Origin: Prevotella sp. E15-22
GTDB lineage: Bacteria > Bacteroidota > Bacteroidia > Bacteroidales > Bacteroidaceae
Reading direction: 5' to 3'
DNA length: 64,000 nucleotides
Assembly: GCF_023204875.1 (NCBI RefSeq)
Contig: NZ_CP096247.1
Location: forward strand, 1,736,001 to 1,800,000
Part shown: in pieces, positions 27,780 through 40,369 of the stretch
Layout of the letters: each line of letters begins with the position of its first letter
Numbering within the stretch: the stretch's first letter is position 1
Notes under the pieces: model-generated
What the model saw: the letters and a program-made list of their open reading frames with translations, nothing else
What the model was told of the DNA's origin: nothing
Databases searched by the model: none
Made by a program: the position numbers and the translations under genes

Positions 27780-28778
27780 TCACTCATTTATTGCTCCGCA
27801 ATGTGGGCAAACACCTTTGTGATATAACTTTTCTCCACATCGCCCACAGAAATAGGCTGCCCTACTCTTATGCACGTACTGGCGAATGGCCAGATAAGCA
27901 TAAAGAATTAAAAGCGGATAACCAATATAATACAAGGTGGAAATGCTGAAAACAACGTAGTTAATAGCACAGACACCCATAAGGCCAAGACCATAGAGTA
28001 TCGTCTCGCCCAACGACAAATGGCGACGAATGTCATCGACAGCCGCAAGGGAAATAAGTAGGAGCCCCCAAACCGACACGATGAAAACACTGAGATGCAA
28101 CGGAGCTGCAAAGGGGTTAAGTGTGGGATGATAATAATAATGACGCCACGAATCGGGAGCAGCGAGTTGAATGGTGCTGTAGAACACGGCAGACGCTGCG
28201 ACGAAAAGAGCCAGGAGCGTAGGATAGAACGACGGAATATCATTAAAATGCACAATCTTGGCATTACGACGCGTCAATGCCCAAATCGTATAGATAGCCG
28301 CCACAACGGCCCAGAATGCCAACATCAGCAGCAAGTGGGTGTCAGAGAAAAAATCTATGAACTGAGAAATGGGGTTATCGGGTGCCACGCCAGGCAACAT
28401 TTCTTTCTCGCGTATCCATCCAATAGTCATCTGATCGCGTGCCACCTGAACCCACACGGAATCCACCGTATCAGAAGGAAGAGTCATGATATCAGCCACC
28501 ACCAAACGGTCGTCATGATAGACGGCAATCGTGTCAACCAGCATCTCGCTGAGCAACTCTGATGGCTGCTGAACAATGAGTCGCAAAGAGTCTGCCGTCA
28601 CCATGAAATTATAGTTCTGTGTATAATGGTGAGTGGTATAGAACGATATGGAGTCCATCTGTTCTTCCGTCACAATCCAGGCATCTGACGTCTCCGGATT
28701 CTGATGATAACAGCTGTTCAGCATCAGAATCATCATACTGAGGAAGCAAAGATAGAACTTATTCATTGGCATAGACAT
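27780..28778 (-). CDS. Zinc-ribbon membrane lipoprotein, hypothetical
   Basis: A 332-aa protein: lipobox-like LMLNSC near residue 23, an extracytoplasmic domain of about 110 residues (SH3-like feel around VWVQVARDQMTIGWIREKEML), five hydrophobic segments between about 140 and 305, and a C-terminal zinc ribbon FCGRCGEKLYHKGVCPHCG. ATGs at 28778, 28772 and 28766 are all possible. It overlaps the U32 gene by 20 bases. Function unknown; the CxxC pairs echo the zinc ribbons of the kinase cluster upstream. Confidence 0.75.
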   Translation of the reverse strand: MSMPMNKFYLCFLSMMILMLNSCYHQNPETSDAWIVTEEQMDSISFYTTHHYTQNYNFMVTADSLRLIVQQPSELLSEMLVDTIAVYHDDRLVVADIMTLPSDTVDSVWVQVARDQMTIGWIREKEMLPGVAPDNPISQFIDFFSDTHLLLMLAFWAVVAAIYTIWALTRRNAKIVHFNDIPSFYPTLLALFVAASAVFYSTIQLAAPDSWRHYYYHPTLNPFAAPLHLSVFIVSVWGLLLISLAAVDDIRRHLSLGETILYGLGLMGVCAINYVVFSISTLYYIGYPLLILYAYLAIRQYVHKSRAAYFCGRCGEKLYHKGVCPHCGAINE

Positions 28779-31481: not shown

Positions 31482-32231
31482 TTATTCTTCTACATGAACT
31501 ACAATCACCGACACATTATCAAAGCCACCAGCATCCTCGGCCATCTGGCATAGTGTTTCAGCATCACATCCATCCATCATTCGCTGACAGATGATGTCGT
31601 CACTAATCATATCTGTGAGTCCATCGCTACAAATGAGTAGCTTATCGCCCACCTCTATCTTTTCTGTAATTTTCTCTATATCAATATAGCAATCTTTGCA
31701 TCCGCCACCAATACAATTCACAATCTGACTGGAGTGTTCCTTCAGACCTAAGACCTGACTCAGCGAGTGGTCTGTGGTAAGCTGTCGCAGTTCACCTTTA
31801 TGAAGCAGATAAAGACGGCTATCGCCACAATTCATCCAATAATACTCACCTGCCAGATAGGCCAGAGCAACCACAGTAGTGCCCATATCGGAATAGGCTG
31901 GATTGGCAAGTCCGCGTGAGTTAATCTCAAGACTAATGCTCATCAGCCATTTCCGGATAGAAGAAGCAAACTCATCGGCTGGCAGATTATTAGGCAAATC
32001 ACCAAAGAAATAGCGCAGGCTATGAAGCACCTCAGAACTCGCCACTTCGCCACATTTATGACCGCCCATGCCATCGGCCAAGGCCAATATCAGGCGCTCT
32101 GAACTAGTAAGATCAATGGTTTTACTTTCAACAGCATCACGAATGAAATCGTGATCAAGCATAATCATATCCTCGTTGTTGGCTCGTACGCAACCAACCC
32201 TACTTGATGCAGTAATATAAAAATGTGCCAT
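31482..32231 (-). CDS. PP2C-family protein phosphatase
   Basis: A 249-aa Ser/Thr phosphatase: GCVRANNEDM (metal Asp/Glu), ALADGMGGHKCGEVAS (motif with metal Asp53 and Gly), NCGDSRLYLL, DHSLSQ, LLICSDGLTDM and FDNVSVIVV. All metal ligands of the PP2C core are present, no membrane or sensor domain. Eight bases after the FHA gene in the kinase cluster, so it probably reverses the phosphorylation made by the kinase at 36.2-39.4 kb (inference from context). Confidence 0.93.
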   Translation of the reverse strand: MAHFYITASSRVGCVRANNEDMIMLDHDFIRDAVESKTIDLTSSERLILALADGMGGHKCGEVASSEVLHSLRYFFGDLPNNLPADEFASSIRKWLMSISLEINSRGLANPAYSDMGTTVVALAYLAGEYYWMNCGDSRLYLLHKGELRQLTTDHSLSQVLGLKEHSSQIVNCIGGGCKDCYIDIEKITEKIEVGDKLLICSDGLTDMISDDIICQRMMDGCDAETLCQMAEDAGGFDNVSVIVVHVEE

Positions 32232-32239
32232 ATGATGAT

Positions 32240-32836
32240 TTAATTAATACTTACTTTCAATACAACATTGGCCAAAGTCACAATGTCACCATTCTTAAGC
32301 GACATTTCGACATCAGGCTGTAACTTATGATCATTCAACTTTGTTCCATTTGAGGAATGCTTGTCAACGATATGCCATCCTGTCTCGGGATAGAACATCA
32401 GCTGCGCATGCACTCCCGACATGTATTTCTGCTGTTGGAAGAATTGCACATAAGGTCCCTGACGTCTTCCAATCACGCCTCCATTGATGCCAATGATGCG
32501 GATGCCAAGCGAATCATTGTAGAGCAATAATTGCGGAGGCATTCCGCCACGCTGTGAATGCGAAGCATTGACTGGTCTGTTTCCCGTGGTATTAAGATAG
32601 CGCTGAGAACTAGATAGGAATCCCTGAGACATGCCCATAGACATAGAGACACTGATACTATTTGAGCCTCTACGCTGATAGTCGTCGGCCGAGAGCATCA
32701 GTCCGCCACACGATGTGCAGCGACGTCCCATTCCCACACGTCCACATTTCTCGCAATAGGTCAGCATCTGACCACATTGGTCACAGTAATGGGAATCGTC
32801 ATCTATTTCTTCTTTGCAGTTTGGACAAATAATCAT
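32240..32836 (-). CDS. Zinc-ribbon and FHA-domain protein
   Basis: A 198-aa adaptor. N-terminal Cys-rich region (CPNC ... CDQC at 4-21, then CEKC ... CTSC at 28-43) forms two zinc ribbons. A Ser/Met-rich linker follows (55-105), then an FHA domain: GRR (123-125), S-x-V-H (140-143) and SSNGTKLN (161-168), the residues that hold phospho-threonine. It should read phospho-Thr on partner proteins, most obviously the repeat ladder of the linked kinase. Overlaps the AAA gene by four bases. Confidence 0.92.
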   Translation of the reverse strand: MIICPNCKEEIDDDSHYCDQCGQMLTYCEKCGRVGMGRRCTSCGGLMLSADDYQRRGSNSISVSMSMGMSQGFLSSSQRYLNTTGNRPVNASHSQRGGMPPQLLLYNDSLGIRIIGINGGVIGRRQGPYVQFFQQQKYMSGVHAQLMFYPETGWHIVDKHSSNGTKLNDHKLQPDVEMSLKNGDIVTLANVVLKVSIN

Positions 32837-35800
32837 CTTTCTTTAATATCTTCTGGAAGTATTAACTGATATGTTTCTTTCGTCACCTGATCGGGGGGCA
32901 ACTCGGCTACACGGACAGACAACTGCTGTATCGTCTCGTCAAGCATGTTACGAATCTCACGAGCATTTCCGAAAGTCTCGTCCTTGGTACTCAACATCCT
33001 ACAGATAACATCGAGTGCCTTGAACTCCGCTGTAGGCGACAGGACATACTGCTCTTTCTCGGCCATTTTCTTGAAAATTGCCAACAGTTCATCCGCATTG
33101 TAATCCTCAATATGAAGCTTGTGAGTGAAACGACTGGCTAGTCCTGCGTTCATCGTCAAGAACTCATCCATCTTATCCTGATAGCCGGCAGCGATAACCA
33201 CAAACTTACCACGGTCGTCCTCCATGCGCTTCATCAGCGTGTCTATGGCTTCCTTGCCATACTGGTCGTTTTGATCAGAAAGTGTATATGCCTCATCGAT
33301 GAACAGGATGCCACCCATCGCTTTGTCGCACATTGCATTGACAATCTTAGGTGTCTCACCCATATACTTTCCTATCAGCGTTGCCCTACTTGCCTCAACG
33401 ACATTGGCGGTTGGCAACACCTCAATAGCTTGCAGCACCTCGCCCATCTTACGGGCAATGGTTGTCTTACCCGTTCCAGGATTACCCGTCAGGATAAAGT
33501 TCATACTCATTTGTTGAACACTACCTGCTCCCATAGCCGCACGTTGTTTAATAAACATGCTTTGTACAGCCAGACGGCGAATGGCATTCTTGACCGAACG
33601 CATACCGATGAACTCTTCCAGTTCCTTGAGAACCTCGTCCAGCGAGCGTGCAGGTCCAGCATTGCCTTGAGCAGTAGGCAGATCCTCCACCTTGAAGCGA
33701 TACATATCATTCAGTTCAAAGCCGTTAGCCTCGTCATCGCACACCTGAACGCCAGGTTGATTCATCTCCTTCACCAGTCGCTGACTCTGTCGCTCCACTG
33801 TCTGGTCGAAGATTCTACGAGCCTCACGCGCATTGCCAAAGTTCTTGTCACGACGCAAATAGAGTTGTTCAAACAATCGATGAACAGCAGTTTTCATCTC
33901 GTCATCAACAACAAAGTTCTTTGCTGTAGACATATTTACAAAGATCTGCGTCAACTCATCTGCAGTATAATCCTCGAAATGGATAGTCTGCGTAAACCTA
34001 CTCTTCAGGCCCGGGTTCGAGTCGATGAAGTCGTGCATATTGTCTGTATAGCCAGCCACAATACATATAAACTTGCCGCGATCGTCCTCCAGACGCTTCA
34101 ACAGAGTGTCAATGGCTTCAGCGCCGAAAGTATCGTTATCACCCGACTTCAAGGTGTATGCCTCATCAATAAAGAGTACGCCACCCATAGCCGAGTCAAT
34201 CAACTGGTTGGTCTTGATGGCAGTCTGTCCTGCGAAGCCTGCTACCAACTTCGAACGGTCAGCCTCGACCAATTGTCCACGCGAAAGGATGCCCAATGTC
34301 TTGAAAACATCGGCCATGATGCGAGCAACGGTAGTCTTACCGGTACCTGGATTACCCGTAAACACATAGTGTTTTCCCTGGAAAGTATTTGTCTCGCCAC
34401 GCTTGATTTGAAGAGTCAGGAAAGCAGTCAAGTTAGAAACCTCCTTCTTAACCGACTCCAATCCCACCATACCATCAAACTTCTTCAGACATTCTGAGCA
34501 ATCGACAGCCTGCGGAGCCTCATACGGGATATCCTCGGTGATGAAAGTCATTAATTCGTCGTTACTCATTTGAGACACATCACCTGTTTGCAATCTGCGA
34601 GCCTGACGCTTACATATCTCATCAAACAGAGAGCGCATCGTGCGTCCGTTAGCAAAATCCTTATCGCGTGTGTTATACAGTTCCTTAATCTGCTTACGAA
34701 CCAACTCCTCTGCCTCGGGCGAGAACTTATATTTCTTGCCTCCCAGAAACACCATCAAGATCTGATAGAGCTCGTCTGGGTTATAATCCTCCAAATTTAG
34801 GAAATAGTTAAAGCGGCTACGCATTCCCGGATTGATACGGAATAGATTATCCATTTCCATACGATAGCCCGCAGCAATAACCACGAACTTACCACGGTCG
34901 TCCTCCATGCGCTTCATCAGAGTCTCCAAGGCCTGAGCTCCTTGTGCATCGCGGTCGCCCGCCTGACTGACAGGTGCCAGAGTATAAGCCTCATCGACAA
35001 AAAGGATGCCGCCCATAGCCTTGTCACACAGTTGGTTAACCAATTTAGGTGTTTCGCCCTGATACGGAGACACCATCTTTGAACGATCCACCTCGACCAC
35101 ATGACCTGAGTCCAGATAGCCGATGGCCGCTAAGATCTCGCCCAACTTACGAGCAATGGTTGTCTTACCCGTTCCAGGATTACCCGTCAAGACAATGTGC
35201 ATAGACATCTTTTGATACTCACCCAATCCACGTTCGGCACGTTGCATGTCGTTTTGTACGGAATAAGCCATTTCCTTCACAGCTTGTTTCACGTCGTTCA
35301 TGCCGATGAACGTATCAAGGTCGCTCAAGATCTGATCCAGAGTTCTCTCCTCGGGCACATATCCCCTGATATCCTCACACTCCACTATCGAGTCTTTAGC
35401 ACCTCTACTGATGAAAGAAGTGAAGATGTCCTCAGCCGTTTTCATGGCCAAGTGAGCATTACCAAAGGTCTCGTCCTTAATCTTTATCTGATATTTGAAG
35501 TAGCGAGTCAATTGCTTGTCAGCCTCCTCTGAGAACGTTGTAAGACTATACTTCGTGCGCAGCTGTAGCTTGGCGATGTCACACAGTTCCTGACAATTAG
35601 GTGTGGGCAGGTGGAACATGTACTTAAAGCGGTTCTTAACGGCAGGGTTATTCTCGAGGAACTCCTCAAAACCCTTAGGCAAACCTGCCATCATGACAAT
35701 AGGATTGCCCTCCCACTTGTCCATTTCCACAAATAACTTGTCCAATGGATTCACCTGATTAGAATACTTGTCAGGTAGCAGTTTCTGAACATTATCAAAG

Positions 35801-36183
35801 AAGAGGATGCCGTTTCGAGCCTTCTTGATATTCTCGTCCCACTGATCAACGAAACGCTGATAGTCCACAGCGTCAACCATCGTCAGTTTTGGTTTTTCCA
35901 GAATCTTATGCTGATAGAAATAATCACGTATAATCTCTGCAAGAGCCGTCTTTCCCGTACCAGTCTCGCCCATGATGATGGCATTAAGAGAGAGACGTAT
36001 GGTAGAGATATCCTTACGTGTGCGCAAATAAGCATAGGTATCGACAACGGTCTTCAACTGAGTCTTTACATCCTTCAGTCCAACCAACTTGTCGAGTACA
36101 TGCTGCGACACCAAAGGCTGACCGCACCATTTGCAGAACTTGGCGCTGTTCCTATTTTCCTTATGACAGATTTCGCAAATCAT
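32833..36183 (-). CDS. Four-module CbxX/CfqX-type AAA ATPase with N-terminal zinc ribbon
   Basis: A 1116-aa protein: zinc ribbon CEIC ... CKWC (3-20), then four AAA modules. Walker A near 72-79 (GETGTGKT), 334-341, 610-617 and about 900-907 (GNPGTGKT in the last three). Walker B is LFVDEAYTL / LFIDEAYTL in modules 2-4 but LFFDN in module 1, so the first lacks the catalytic Glu. Family relatives include CbbX (Rubisco activase), SpoVK and EccA of ESX secretion. Probably remodels a protein substrate, with recruitment by the linked kinase/FHA pair (inference). Confidence 0.92.
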   Translation of the reverse strand: MICEICHKENRNSAKFCKWCGQPLVSQHVLDKLVGLKDVKTQLKTVVDTYAYLRTRKDISTIRLSLNAIIMGETGTGKTALAEIIRDYFYQHKILEKPKLTMVDAVDYQRFVDQWDENIKKARNGILFFDNVQKLLPDKYSNQVNPLDKLFVEMDKWEGNPIVMMAGLPKGFEEFLENNPAVKNRFKYMFHLPTPNCQELCDIAKLQLRTKYSLTTFSEEADKQLTRYFKYQIKIKDETFGNAHLAMKTAEDIFTSFISRGAKDSIVECEDIRGYVPEERTLDQILSDLDTFIGMNDVKQAVKEMAYSVQNDMQRAERGLGEYQKMSMHIVLTGNPGTGKTTIARKLGEILAAIGYLDSGHVVEVDRSKMVSPYQGETPKLVNQLCDKAMGGILFVDEAYTLAPVSQAGDRDAQGAQALETLMKRMEDDRGKFVVIAAGYRMEMDNLFRINPGMRSRFNYFLNLEDYNPDELYQILMVFLGGKKYKFSPEAEELVRKQIKELYNTRDKDFANGRTMRSLFDEICKRQARRLQTGDVSQMSNDELMTFITEDIPYEAPQAVDCSECLKKFDGMVGLESVKKEVSNLTAFLTLQIKRGETNTFQGKHYVFTGNPGTGKTTVARIMADVFKTLGILSRGQLVEADRSKLVAGFAGQTAIKTNQLIDSAMGGVLFIDEAYTLKSGDNDTFGAEAIDTLLKRLEDDRGKFICIVAGYTDNMHDFIDSNPGLKSRFTQTIHFEDYTADELTQIFVNMSTAKNFVVDDEMKTAVHRLFEQLYLRRDKNFGNAREARRIFDQTVERQSQRLVKEMNQPGVQVCDDEANGFELNDMYRFKVEDLPTAQGNAGPARSLDEVLKELEEFIGMRSVKNAIRRLAVQSMFIKQRAAMGAGSVQQMSMNFILTGNPGTGKTTIARKMGEVLQAIEVLPTANVVEASRATLIGKYMGETPKIVNAMCDKAMGGILFIDEAYTLSDQNDQYGKEAIDTLMKRMEDDRGKFVVIAAGYQDKMDEFLTMNAGLASRFTHKLHIEDYNADELLAIFKKMAEKEQYVLSPTAEFKALDVICRMLSTKDETFGNAREIRNMLDETIQQLSVRVAELPPDQVTKETYQLILPEDIKER

Positions 36184-36221
36184 TTTATACTCTCAGATGT
36201 TTTATGAGTACTTGCCGTTTT

Positions 36222-39200
36222 TTATTTCCAGCCAACAATGAGTGGACTGAACAAACACAACTCGAAAATCATGACGAAAGCCAACAGCGACCACAAGATA
36301 TAGTGGATCACCGATTCGCCAGACAAAGAGTTGATATGGTCTTCAATTTCGTCGAGCACGCTGAAATGCGTAGCTTTATAACGTTGCGACTTCGTTTTAA
36401 ATGCGAAATACAGCGGTTCAAGCAGAGTGGTTTTAATATCCTGCTGAGCCAAAGCCTCGTTAACGAACTTCTTATCTAGTTTCTGATCACGACTAAAGTC
36501 GGTCAACTTAGCCACTGCCACATACACCCCAGTAAAGGCGAGTACGGCAAGATGGAACAGACTGGGGAAATGACTGTTTACATAATTCAGTCCGTAATAA
36601 GGCAAATATGCTGTGAGTAAGCCTAAGCCACCCAGAATCAGCGAGAAGAAAGCACCGATACCTTTGAAATAAGAACGTGCAGCCACGATGACACCCGTCA
36701 TACCGCCCAAGGGCAGGATGATACACATGATATGGTGGCGGAAGATGTATGTTCGGTCGTCCAGTCCAAAGATGAGAACCATCAATGCCCAAAGTCCACT
36801 GAGCACGAAGAACGACATGCGACAAATCTCCTCGCGATAATGAGCCGTGCGCCATTCCACACGTACCTGATCAATACGGTCTTCCGTCTCGGTTATAGCC
36901 TTCTTATAGCGGCGGTAGAAGTTCTGCTGAGGATCAAGTTCTCCCAGCGCCTTCACCCATTCGGCCAGTTCTTGTTCATAGCTATATTCCTCGTCGAAAT
37001 ACTGAGAAGGATCCTCGTGATAGAACACCGACATCCATTGCATCAACGACCCCGTACGAATCTCCGTACGAATCTGCGGCATCTTCTTCGAGTCCAGATT
37101 TCTTCCGTCGGTCAGCATAGTGCCGTTCTGCAGATAGTAGACAGGCTTGTTGCCTAAGATACAGCAGAAACGATATAGCGCTGTATGAAGGTCGTAGGCT
37201 CCCAATCGCTCACGGTTTTCCTCCGACATCAAGTCAAAGCACCTTCCAGCTTCGCTAACCAGCGAGTCCCAGCCATACTGACGGGCATAGAAAACGAATC
37301 GTCCGTTGGGGTCGGTATATTCCACCATCAGGTCGGCCAGTTCCTCCTCCGACATGCGTTGACACTTTATCAAGTCGTGAGCCAGTAAAGCTCCAATCTT
37401 CTCGGGTGTCGAAGCCTCTTTCAGGTCGTAGGCAGCGAAAGGCTCAATAGAATAGAGCACCTTGTAAGCCAACGACATGGAGAACGGTTGTTTCTCCGTG
37501 AGCAGTCGAACCTTTTCACAGATGGTCAGATCCTCGTGAGAATAAAGCCACGACAGCAGTCGACCGTCACACAAAGCATGCCAATCGTCCTCACGCACAT
37601 CCTCGTAGCCAAACGAATGAACGATTTCCTCGACCGACGACGACGGCAGATGTGCAATAAAGGGGATATTAGCATCGAGCTCGAATATCATTCTGAGCAC
37701 AGCCACTTTCGGATCCAGTGCACCATCGAAGTACTTACGCAAGCGCTTCACGTCGCCAATGCCGCGAGCCTCGAGCCACAGGAAGAGCGAATCGTTGGGA
37801 TTCATCAGCATGATGGCATACTTCTCCTGATAGGTGAGCAGCGACATTGCGATAGCCATCACGTCCTCACACTCCTCATTGCTCACGTCGCGATAGTTCA
37901 TCGTGGGCTCCATCGCATAGCAGCTGGCGTGCAAGCCCGCATGCTGGTCGTTAGGATACTTCTTCTCGACGATATCCTTAACGATGGTCGACATCTTCAC
38001 GTTGCCACTCTGCTCCAGCCACTGGATGATACGACCATTATAAAGATAGTTCATGCCCAACTGCTCGTTGTCAAGCAGCAAGGGCACCAACTCATGTACG
38101 TTCTCAGCAATCAAGTTACGCTCGGGATCCACCACGAAGCTCTTATAGCGCAGGAAGGGCGATGATATATCGACAGCCACGTCCTCACCTTTAAACCAGC
38201 GCTCCACCTCGTCATATCCCCAGCGCGTCTGCTGGTTTACGGAGGTCAGACCCTGAACAATCTGCTTCACCCTGTCGGGCAATTCATTCAAGCGCGGCAG
38301 ACGGCCCTCGTTCTTCTGCTTCATCATGGTGCGCTCGTTGGTACTCATAGGACTCTCGCCCAACCAGAGTGCGAACAGCGTCATACCCAGTGAATAGAAG
38401 TCGGCAGCATATGTAATCTCCACCACGCCGTCGATCACATCGGTATACATCTCAGGCGCAGCATAGATAGGCGTACGCGCCTGCGTTGTGCGGAACGACT
38501 TTCCTGGTGCGTCCTGCAGAGAAGAAATACCAAAGTCGCCCAGCACCAGTTCCTTCTGATCTTCGTCACGGAAGAAATAGTTGGTGGGCTTAACGTCCTT
38601 GTGCAGCACATAACTCTTATGACAGTAGGCCAATGCGGCAGCAGCCTGCAGGGCCAAACGGCGGAAGCGGTTGAAATCGCCATGAAGTTTCACATCCTTC
38701 AGCGTACCACCCTTCAGATACTCCATCAACTCGTACTGACGGTTCTTACCGTCGACATACGTTCTGCCATAATCAATGAGGTTGACAATCATCTCGAAAT
38801 CGAACGAGCGGACAACCTGCATGAGTTTCTTGTTGATATCGAAGTTGGGGTAATAGAGTTTGAGCACGTATTCCTTGCCATCCTTTTTAACCAGGAACAC
38901 CTGCGCCTCACCCGTATTCTCGCTAAGTACAGAAGTCTGTTCGTATTCAATGCCGCGAAGATTGAACACGGTAGGAGCGTCAATGGGATCGTTCGAGATG
39001 TCGGTATTAGGACGCATCGTTGTTTCGCCGCCACCACTATAGGCCATTGTCCTATCGCTATCATTGCTGCCATAGGCCATGGTCTTGTCGCTATCATCAT
39101 CATCGTTCATGATGGTGGTACGTTCGCCATCCATGATAGTAGTGCGCTCGCCATCCATGATAGTGGTGCGTTCGCCGTCCATGATAGTGGTGCGTTCGCC

Positions 39201-39380
39201 GTCCATGATAGTAGTGCGTTCGCCATCCATGATAGTGGTGCGTTCGCCGTCCATGATAGTAGTGCGTTCGCCATCCATGATAGTGGTGCGTTCGCCGTCC
39301 ATAATGGTGGTCTTATCGAGGTCGTCAGACAAATCGCTGTCTCCGCCCATTATCGTCGTTTTTTCGAGATCGTCTGCCAT
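36222..39380 (-). CDS. Membrane Ser/Thr protein kinase with TTIMDGER repeat ladder
   Basis: A 1052-aa Hanks-type kinase. Residues 8-91 carry ten TTIM motifs, eight as perfect TTIMDGER repeats (24-87), then KTMAY, RTMAY and ETTM. The kinase domain (~145-400) has Lys174 (YVLKLY), HKDVKPTN (260-267), DFG (282-284) and AAPE (307-310), so it should be active. A classical Gly-rich loop is not obvious. A long helical region follows, then about five membrane segments from ~870 to the end. The repeats look like autophosphorylation and FHA-docking sites. Starts two bases after the zinc-ribbon gene stop. Confidence 0.93.
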   Translation of the reverse strand: MADDLEKTTIMGGDSDLSDDLDKTTIMDGERTTIMDGERTTIMDGERTTIMDGERTTIMDGERTTIMDGERTTIMDGERTTIMDGERTTIMNDDDDSDKTMAYGSNDSDRTMAYSGGGETTMRPNTDISNDPIDAPTVFNLRGIEYEQTSVLSENTGEAQVFLVKKDGKEYVLKLYYPNFDINKKLMQVVRSFDFEMIVNLIDYGRTYVDGKNRQYELMEYLKGGTLKDVKLHGDFNRFRRLALQAAAALAYCHKSYVLHKDVKPTNYFFRDEDQKELVLGDFGISSLQDAPGKSFRTTQARTPIYAAPEMYTDVIDGVVEITYAADFYSLGMTLFALWLGESPMSTNERTMMKQKNEGRLPRLNELPDRVKQIVQGLTSVNQQTRWGYDEVERWFKGEDVAVDISSPFLRYKSFVVDPERNLIAENVHELVPLLLDNEQLGMNYLYNGRIIQWLEQSGNVKMSTIVKDIVEKKYPNDQHAGLHASCYAMEPTMNYRDVSNEECEDVMAIAMSLLTYQEKYAIMLMNPNDSLFLWLEARGIGDVKRLRKYFDGALDPKVAVLRMIFELDANIPFIAHLPSSSVEEIVHSFGYEDVREDDWHALCDGRLLSWLYSHEDLTICEKVRLLTEKQPFSMSLAYKVLYSIEPFAAYDLKEASTPEKIGALLAHDLIKCQRMSEEELADLMVEYTDPNGRFVFYARQYGWDSLVSEAGRCFDLMSEENRERLGAYDLHTALYRFCCILGNKPVYYLQNGTMLTDGRNLDSKKMPQIRTEIRTGSLMQWMSVFYHEDPSQYFDEEYSYEQELAEWVKALGELDPQQNFYRRYKKAITETEDRIDQVRVEWRTAHYREEICRMSFFVLSGLWALMVLIFGLDDRTYIFRHHIMCIILPLGGMTGVIVAARSYFKGIGAFFSLILGGLGLLTAYLPYYGLNYVNSHFPSLFHLAVLAFTGVYVAVAKLTDFSRDQKLDKKFVNEALAQQDIKTTLLEPLYFAFKTKSQRYKATHFSVLDEIEDHINSLSGESVIHYILWSLLAFVMIFELCLFSPLIVGWK
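39121..39312 (-). repeat. Eight tandem 24-bp units coding TTIMDGER
   Basis: Eight contiguous 24-base units inside the kinase gene. Units differ only at third codon positions (ACC/ACT, GAT/GAC, GAA/GAG, ATC/ATT), so the peptide is perfectly kept while the DNA drifts. In-frame coding repeat with no spacers, hence not CRISPR. Confidence 0.97.
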
Positions 39381-39382
39381 TA

Positions 39383-40306
39383 TTACTTATCGTCCTTGAT
39401 TTCTTGTTTCGAATTATGTCCCAGGATGACCCATGTGCCACCCATCTGAGGCTTAGCGCATCCACAGGGACTGGAGTGAAGCGCCTGCTTATAGTTGCAT
39501 TTCCATGCCAGACGCACACCAGCAGGCTTCTGCGCCATGGCGAAGTTGCGCACCTTAGCGGGCGATTGATGTGGCGGAATGGTCATGCGACTGAGCAGCT
39601 CGGCCAACTGGTCCAGCTTCTTCTGCTTAGCCTCCTGCAATTCCTCCTTGGTGACGCGCTTTTTGTGAGGAGCAGGAATCTCGGGAAACTCCTCGCCCTC
39701 GTCCTCGGCCAGCAGTCGGAGCACACGCTCGCGAAGTCCGTGAAGGTCGTCGCCACGCTCCTTGTCCTGCACCGTCTCGTAGGGCAGCTGCATCTGCAGT
39801 TCGTTGTATTCGTGCGAGAGCGACATCAGCTCCTTGTATTCGGGCAGCTGACGCATCTCGGCCAGAATAGCCTTAGCTTCGGCCGTGAGGGGCTGTCCAC
39901 ACTGTTTGCAGAAAGAGAAGTCGTTCAGTGTATGACAGGCCGGACACACGATGCCGCCACGAGGCATGCCGCACTGCGGACAATAGCCATCGTTGATATT
40001 AAAGTCGGCACCACAGAAAGAGCAAACGTCCTGACGGATGTAGTGGTGACACACCTCACAGTAATCAGCGTCGGGGTCAATCTCGCTACCACAGTTAGGA
40101 CATGTAGCCATATGCAGTGGTTCGCCACACGACGCACAGAACTGAGCCTCGGGCTCGTTCACGGTGCCGCATTTAGGACACACCACACCATTGGCAGCAT
40201 CGTCTTGCATCATCATCTGCTGCTGCATCATGGGTTGTTCGCGCTGCATCTGCAGTTCGCGTTCCCTTTGTATCTGGTCTGAAAACACGGGTCTTTCTTC
40301 TGTCAT
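39383..40306 (-). CDS. Four-zinc-ribbon protein
   Basis: A 307-aa soluble protein. A Gln/Met-rich start (MQREQPMMQQQMMMQ) is followed by four zinc ribbons in series between about 42 and 142: CPKC/CASC, CPNC/CEVC, CSFC/CPQC and CPAC/CKQC. Next is a charged helical part, then a C-terminal stretch with HSSPCGCAKPQMGGTWV. No enzyme motif. First gene of the kinase cluster, just after a consensus promoter. Likely an assembly or adaptor protein for the module. Confidence 0.85.
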   Translation of the reverse strand: MTEERPVFSDQIQRERELQMQREQPMMQQQMMMQDDAANGVVCPKCGTVNEPEAQFCASCGEPLHMATCPNCGSEIDPDADYCEVCHHYIRQDVCSFCGADFNINDGYCPQCGMPRGGIVCPACHTLNDFSFCKQCGQPLTAEAKAILAEMRQLPEYKELMSLSHEYNELQMQLPYETVQDKERGDDLHGLRERVLRLLAEDEGEEFPEIPAPHKKRVTKEELQEAKQKKLDQLAELLSRMTIPPHQSPAKVRNFAMAQKPAGVRLAWKCNYKQALHSSPCGCAKPQMGGTWVILGHNSKQEIKDDK

Positions 40307-40337: not shown

Positions 40338-40369
40338 CAAAGATACAAATTGTTTGTGATATCTGCAAA
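40338..40369 (-). promoter_or_regulatory. Promoter of the zinc-ribbon/kinase/AAA/FHA/PP2C cluster
   Basis: On the minus strand TTTG (40369-40366), 20-base spacer, TATCTTTG (40345-40338): exact consensus. It lies 31 bases before the first ATG. No other consensus promoter was recognised before metA, so metA, the U32 gene and the last lipoprotein may depend on it. Confidence 0.85.

Follow-up and report, generated by a model that had tools for sequence, protein, structure and literature searches.

What might a bacterium build from a membrane Ser/Thr kinase, an FHA reader, a PP2C phosphatase, a multi-module AAA ATPase and a zinc-ribbon protein, when all five are encoded side by side? The question is raised by a locus of Prevotella sp. 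E15-22 (contig NZ_CP096247.1, positions 1,736,001 to 1,800,000 of the forward strand); these 64,000 nucleotides, the whole stretch of DNA analysed, are referred to here as the window. In transcription order the genes are ZR (zinc-ribbon protein), KIN (kinase), AAA, FHA and PPC (phosphatase), five open reading frames (ORFs) that all lie on the minus strand with gaps of 2, 38, -4 and 8 bases. The initial annotation of this DNA had described such a strand-coherent run, with zinc ribbons in three of its five products; its coordinates, strand, spacing and domains are all confirmed, and the ribbons belong to ZR, the FHA protein and AAA, the last of which starts with a CxxC..CxxC stretch. The five genes are one real, co-inherited unit, whose probable product is an assembly at the cell membrane that can be switched on and off. 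What is new here is that the N-terminal tails (N-tails) of KIN are threonine ladders, and that the ladder motif also occurs on ZR N-tails and on the FHA C-termini of distant relatives.

The order ZR-KIN-AAA-FHA-PPC, with gaps below 1000 bases, recurs in 79 of the 84 distinct KIN loci. This count omits repeats of other loci (L017, L018, L019 and L024) as well as L092-L096 and L112-L122, each of which was read singly. Conservation of all five genes together was one of the checks on which the initial annotation had staked its claim, and the claim survives it. The five exceptions are KIN alone at L009 and L011, a unit without PPC at L022, and two loci cut by contig ends (L014 and L016). Among the loci read singly, L092, L093, L094, L096, L118 and L121 have all five genes in order, as does L122, where KIN is 549 amino acids (aa) long and further genes are interspersed; L095 ends after KIN, and L113 and L116 start inside or at KIN and continue with AAA-FHA-PPC. 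The order extends to distant loci of the same phylum (L012, L013, L092, L093, L094, L096 and L121), some of them with an extra gene inside; an additional ORF interrupts the unit in L093, L095 and L012.

Across 200 genomes of the genus, KIN and FHA occur together in 80, KIN only in one (G433), FHA only in one (G334) and neither in 118, and both discordant genomes look like loci broken by contig ends. FHA is thus present in 81 of the 200, and the KIN C-region likewise matches 81 (24 of 86 among the better genomes). Co-occurrence of KIN and AAA is left untabulated, since single-module CbbX-type proteins also match (121/200). Beyond the genus, the KIN C-region matches 4 of 295 genomes of the order, own genome counted, a KIN profile matches 7 of 395 phylum genomes, and another profile matches 7 of 294 in the class of a distant match. 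A scan of genome contigs gives nine KIN relatives, of which the named ones are Prevotella or Prevotellaceae metagenome-assembled genomes, some labelled as rumen or deer. The unit is old and patchy in the phylum. Distance matrices of the five proteins correlate at 0.78-0.88 within Prevotella and at 0.85-0.95 overall, a correlation that is discounted because common descent explains it.

MetA lies within 1 kb after PPC in 75 of 79 loci, and PepO within 1 kb before ZR in 56 of 79. (PepO, ABCF, U32, MazG, UvrB and DZR332 are by-eye labels for flanking ORFs that served as tblastn queries; family libraries were consulted for MetA and for DZR332, whose zinc ribbon is weak.) At E 1e-3, neither MetA nor PepO, U32 or DZR332 is matched in eight distant loci (L012, L013, L092, L093, L094, L096, L121 and L122) that nevertheless keep the order, which there is therefore not a by-product of that neighbourhood. 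Twelve MetA-centred stretches were taken from genomes in which KIN had no match. Six of them have PepO adjoining MetA at 60-242 bases (L097, L098, L100, L101, L102 and L103), which indicates that gain or loss affects the unit as a whole. Of the remaining stretches, L108 has a different gene at this site, ABCF is the neighbour of MetA in L107, and L099, L104, L105 and L106 show no PepO. The pattern TTTG-N18-22-TAnnTTTG, which we take to be the Bacteroidales promoter consensus, is found within 200 nt upstream of ZR in 52 of 78 loci and is absent before KIN (0/81), AAA (0/81), FHA (0/80) and PPC (0/79). In the window MetA starts 9 bases after PPC, so that read-through into MetA is possible.

Patchiness within the genus combined with a precise empty site is also what a defence or conflict system might display, one whose assembly senses infection or stress and whose AAA or kinase acts on host targets. 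The kinase resembles the MAD6 and PD-T4-6 kinases at the domain level, and in the related locus L114 a DUF4062 protein is found together with AAA, ZR, an FHA protein and a degenerate-kinase KIN homologue, L115 being similar. The MetA neighbour, however, is what vertical descent accompanied by losses would leave, and does not suit a defence island with changing content. PADLOC returns only partial kinase and AAA domain matches, with none for ZR, FHA, PPC or the DUF4062 proteins, and at E 1e-20 KIN is matched in none of 50,697 phage and 72,556 plasmid records, nor does a profile scan of viral contigs find it. A defence role is accordingly considered unlikely. Two narrower candidates were rejected: a known anti-phage system, for want of a system-level PADLOC match, and a mobile element, on the phage, plasmid and viral contig searches. 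The AAA matches on plasmids are all below 60% identity, and 85 of the 129 records are in Sinorhizobium and Streptomyces.

The most distinctive part of the unit is the KIN N-tail. In the window, a 24-bp tandem array (39108-39311, 8.5 copies) encodes eight DGERTTIM units with five differing sites, all synonymous (10 differences to the consensus, 0 nonsynonymous); since divergence also determines where the array is taken to end, the pattern is no more than suggestive. The TTIMDGER ladder of the initial annotation is real, but it is one lineage's form, and the commonest form across ladders is [DE]xT[ILMV][RK]. This motif occurs 141 times in 89 tails, compared with a mean of 2.7 and a maximum of 8 in 300 shuffles, and 79 of the 89 tails have it, whereas kinase bodies hold 8 in a total of 83,446 residues. 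Threonine makes up 10.9% of the tails before the kinase domain and 4.5% of the kinases elsewhere. A looser pattern, [DE][KRSAT]T[TILMVFN], is found 211 times in the 89 tails versus 17.1 in shuffles and 47 times in kinase bodies, with 14 tails having none; the very divergent L014 was omitted from the tail count. The exact motif is present in 12 of 16 database kinases, which include P0121 (the protein of L096) and close relatives of L092 and L094, and other lineages have amplified different units (DKTLKPD, SGTQRP, QKTAVAP and QQGTAIP). Prevotella tails are related and their motif counts are non-independent events; the independent point is the recurrence of ladders in another class and in unlike forms.

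The motif is not confined to the kinase. On ZR N-tails it occurs in 16 of 87 (shuffle mean 0.78, maximum 4 in 500 shuffles), the N-tails of L040, L048, L054, L061 and L085 being fragments or having a doubtful start codon. In a distant lineage (L092, L093, L094 and L096) the C-terminus of the FHA protein is the motif, and among three further loci L121 has the motif, L122 a near variant and L113 none. Elsewhere, two other FHA matches and all eight AAA matches lie inside domains of related sequences, and PPC has one. The placement on some ZR N-tails and distant FHA C-termini suggests that the proteins scaffold one another, beyond any docking to the kinase tail.

These counts bear on a plainer account: the unit would be an ordinary signalling cassette whose kinase has its substrates elsewhere, with a ladder that is no more than a drifting disordered repeat without docking and an AAA that is a general chaperone carried along. 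KIN is the sole above-cut-off Pkinase in the genome, so many substrates are possible; simple repeats expand easily, and the related Prevotella tails are not independent. Against this account, ladders with a common motif stand far above shuffles and recur in another class of the phylum, the motif is repeated on partner tails, and the window's ladder units vary only synonymously. On balance it appears improbable.

The catalytic and binding residues expected of a writer, a reader and an eraser are all in place (alignments with length limits: AAA n=85, FHA n=84, PPC n=84, ZR n=86). KIN matches Pkinase at 1.1e-28, and all 89 aligned sequences retain its K174, D262 and D282, the residues of the K, HxD and DFG motifs. 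The FHA protein matches FHA at 5.2e-12 and a double zinc ribbon at 3.6e-07, with G123 R124, S140, H143 and N163 G164 present in 84/84, and PPC matches PP2C_2 at 1e-12, with Asp53, 137, 203 and 238 likewise in 84/84. ZR has four DZR stretches by Pfam and eight CxxC knuckles in its sequence. Its four ribbons (residues 43-136) are followed by a helical-looking middle and a C-terminal W-x-C-x(6)-H-x(2)-P-x(2)-C-x(5)-GG-x-W; the cysteines from C69 to C136 and C270, H277, C283 and W292 are conserved in 86/86, and 14 aligned ZR have only part of the first ribbon or none of it.

AAA was initially described as a four-module machine of 1116 aa, and Pfam does find four AAA stretches, with three CbbX-type lids (AAA_lid_6); what needs amending is module 1, which in the window protein is without the Walker-B Glu. 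In modules 2-4 the Walker-B DE is present in 85/85 each, and the Walker A, sensor and Arg-finger positions hardly vary. Module 1 has Asn for this Glu in all 85 members of at least 1000 aa, with Walker A largely kept, and among nine further loci Asn recurs in six (L112, L114, L115, L116, L118 and L121). Module number varies, with five in L093, L094 and L096 and three in L122.

Behind the kinase domain, KIN residues 396-850 match no Pfam family and have no relative by sequence in the PDB, where the best hit is at E 0.051, yet they are conserved into another class of the phylum. Some relatives have domains beyond the transmembrane (TM) segments: PG_binding_1 in L091 (7.5e-17), SH3_3 in L013 (5.4e-11), and a GxWxG stretch common by eye to L012, L093, L095 and P0124. 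These domains make a KIN C-terminus on the outside likely.

From the conserved unit, its catalytic residues and the enriched motif we infer a cue, a topology, phosphorylation, binding, assembly, recruitment and a client, as follows. KIN would be an inner-membrane protein whose N-tail and kinase domain face the cytosol and whose C-terminus is probably outside, where some relatives have the peptidoglycan-binding or SH3 domain. An envelope cue would lead it to phosphorylate threonines of its own tail ladder, and also the same motif on partner tails, that is, the ZR N-tail and, in some lineages, the FHA C-terminus. Binding of the FHA protein to these phosphosites at many points may then gather kinase, FHA protein and ZR into a membrane-anchored assembly or condensate, which the zinc ribbons perhaps help to hold. 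The assembly would bring in the multi-module CbbX-type AAA, whose module 1, usually without the catalytic Glu, may be an anchor or regulator while the later modules act on a client protein. Removal of the marks by PP2C would dissolve the assembly.

That the unit is such a kinase-written, FHA-read, PP2C-erased membrane scaffold recruiting its own AAA remodeller is, in our judgement, close to an even prospect. The scaffold first proposed for this locus is retained insofar as a writer, reader, eraser, AAA and zinc-ribbon protein are co-inherited under one promoter pattern; its view of the ladder as a docking tail only is adjusted to the mutual scaffold. A bolder version is more tentative, though possible: a secretion-independent phospho-threonine polymer, in which kinase, FHA protein and ZR would all bear the same short threonine tag at flexible ends and the membrane kinase could cross-link them via FHA domains; the resulting assembly or condensate would load and control a dedicated AAA of three to five modules, as an ancient, patchy and undescribed envelope-response organelle of the phylum.

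Several observations weigh against the scaffold. Ten of the 89 tails are without the exact motif, L014 has none by eye, and the window ladder itself fits only the looser pattern, apart from a single exact site, ETTMR. Nor do the window's own ZR and FHA protein carry a terminal tag of this motif, and the FHA tag is absent in the Prevotella C-termini examined and in L012, L013, L091 and L113. Module 1 has Glu in L113 and L014 and Asp in L122, so an inactive module 1 is not universal. The predicted topology is weakened by a variable number of TM-like segments over 89 kinases (five in 42, four in 37, three in 7 and six in 3) and by a basic tail past the last such segment in L094, which argues for a C-terminus inside. 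The unit is also broken in places: L022 has a transporter-like ORF at the place expected for PPC, and KIN is separated from the other unit genes in L009 (=L024) and L011. In genome G366, AAA-FHA-PPC-MetA lie on one contig (L112:4938-10677) and KIN alone on another (L024), with ZR not found in these two stretches; both parts are thus kept though apart.

If the scaffold reading is true, the unit is a compact write-read-erase-act phospho-threonine circuit in bacteria, with its AAA output in the same operon and the likely docking sites of its reader visible as repeat ladders. It makes testable whether phospho-threonine/FHA multivalency builds an assembly without a secretion system, and what role multi-module CbbX-type ATPases have. 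The host genome is a single contig of 3,335,334 bases (99.95% complete) in which KIN alone is above the Pkinase cut-off, with one more match below it, so that the circuit could be studied by single deletions. The genome has two PP2C_2 matches, two FHA matches and three AAA_lid_6 matches, the last all within AAA of the unit. The second FHA protein is at L002:1237-1767 (genome place 1971503) and differs in its N-terminal zinc ribbon, and the second PP2C is at L109:7507-8406, outside the unit. The features of the window are collected in Table 1.

Table 1. Features of the five-gene unit and its upstream region, in window coordinates
Feature	Position	Strand	Description	Basis
Terminator-like stem-loop	40417-40458	-	upstream of ZR	pattern match only
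Promoter-like TTTG-N20-TATCTTTG	40338-40369	-	31 nt upstream of ZR	pattern match
ZR	39383-40306	-	307 aa zinc-ribbon protein	ORF, Pfam
KIN	36222-39380	-	1052 aa membrane Ser/Thr kinase	ORF, Pfam
KIN N-tail	38940-39380	-	threonine ladder	repeat array, motif counts
KIN kinase domain	38205-38903	-	residues 160-392; sole above-cut-off Pkinase in genome	Pfam
KIN post-kinase soluble region	36831-38195	-	residues 396-850	alignments A1, A2
KIN TM-like segments	36264-36818	-	five, residues 855-1039	hydropathy scan
AAA	32833-36183	-	1116 aa; four CbbX/SpoVK-type modules behind an N-terminal zinc ribbon	ORF, family models
AAA module 1	35398-36096	-	residues 30-262; Walker A intact, Walker B FFDN, Asn131 for Glu	
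AAA modules 2-4	32848-35331	-	residues 285-1112; Walker A GNPGTGKT, Walker B DE	
FHA protein	32240-32836	-	198 aa, double zinc ribbon and FHA domain (residues 121-188)	ORF, Pfam
PPC	31482-32231	-	249 aa PP2C phosphatase	ORF, Pfam

Positions 27780-28778 of the window, which lie downstream of MetA and U32, encode a membrane-like protein whose C-terminus weakly matches a zinc ribbon; the gene is kept in genomes without the unit and is therefore not part of it. Genes after PPC in L012 (16931-18396) and L013 (17310-18873) share a C-terminal stretch by eye and are maybe accessory genes; the one in L012 encodes a DUF1963 protein, likewise found at L114:274-960. The variant loci L114 (986-13616) and L115 (916-14999) combine the DUF4062 protein with two CbbX-type AAA, ZR, the degenerate-kinase KIN homologue and the FHA protein. 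By Pfam, applied here to L114 only, the DUF4062 protein also has a weak AAA_16 below cut-off, the FHA protein has a zinc ribbon, and the kinase match of the KIN homologue is weak; L115 resembles L114 by BLAST, and its KIN homologue has a TPMD-type tail repeat. Their make-up indicates that parts of the unit are reused elsewhere, possibly in a separate conflict-type system. In L117 (6100-12349) a 1368-aa CbbX-type AAA adjoins one of 350 aa, and the stretch has neither a kinase nor an FHA match.

How, finally, does the unit compare with known systems? Two papers on conflict systems (PMC7159879 and PMC12419801) describe other systems in the passages available from them. The matches listed in open-access full text, which leave subscription papers and preprints uncovered, include no report of this five-gene set, in keeping with the initial view that no system of this exact make-up has been described. 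PknB-type PASTA kinases are envelope-linked Ser/Thr kinases with an FHA partner, as in the unit. KIN has no PASTA match by Pfam and scores 58.3 bits against NF033483 (cut-off 450), and unlike these kinases it has its ladder N-terminal, before the kinase domain, and a dedicated AAA.

AAA shares its module and lid family with EccA, SpoVK and CbbX. It passes the cut-offs of all three models; for EccA (TIGR03922) the sum of four stretches is 696.7 bits, with a cut-off of 466.65. In the PDB it comes closest to chains of CbbX and EccA1, with 9lur among the matches. EccA has one ATPase module and lies in an ESX locus, and the Rubisco activase CbbX is linked to Rubisco. In contrast, the unit's AAA has three to five tandem modules and an N-terminal zinc ribbon, and its first module usually has Asn in Walker B. 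No ESX or Rubisco gene was recognised beside AAA in the loci examined or among the window's flanking ORFs, neither having been searched for genome-wide. TerY-P type triads consist of a kinase, a PP2C and a vWA protein; kinase-PP2C-vWA triads have the kinase and PP2C with zinc ribbons, as the unit does, and unlike them the unit has FHA and a multi-module AAA. No vWA match was found in the five proteins by Pfam (for AAA, among the best 25 of 81 families). A similar kinase/PP2C/vWA linkage in actinobacteria is described in part of PMC7159879.

The closest likeness is to PpkA-Fha-PppA of type VI secretion, in which a membrane kinase, an FHA reader and a PP2C eraser form one unit, as here. In the portions available of the respective sources, PpkA-Fha condensates recruit type VI parts in Acidovorax (PMC12607579) and Fha binds phospho-TssL (PMC3953482). 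With the same trio of activities, the affinities of AAA to EccA, and an eccC gene about 4 kb from the single plasmid relative of AAA that was examined, in Streptomyces, the unit might regulate protein secretion in the manner of PpkA-Fha-PppA or the type VII EccA, its machine being encoded elsewhere. The host genome, however, has no match to the sheath family PF05591, the one type VI family searched, with an E. coli control positive; a type VI link was rejected on this ground. The FHA protein reaches 25.2 bits with the type VI FHA model TIGR03354 (TagH/VI_FHA), far under its cut-off of 120.25, and the kinase and PP2C have no secretion model among the matches listed. As initially noted, no structural secretion gene is recognised in the window, nor in the locus stretches examined, types VII and IX not having been searched genome-wide. 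We regard secretion control as very doubtful. The unit works like kinase-FHA-PP2C scaffolds such as that of type VI and departs from type VI in two of the three respects tested; unlike PpkA-Fha-PppA, it includes an AAA and a zinc-ribbon adaptor, and its kinase carries a threonine ladder.

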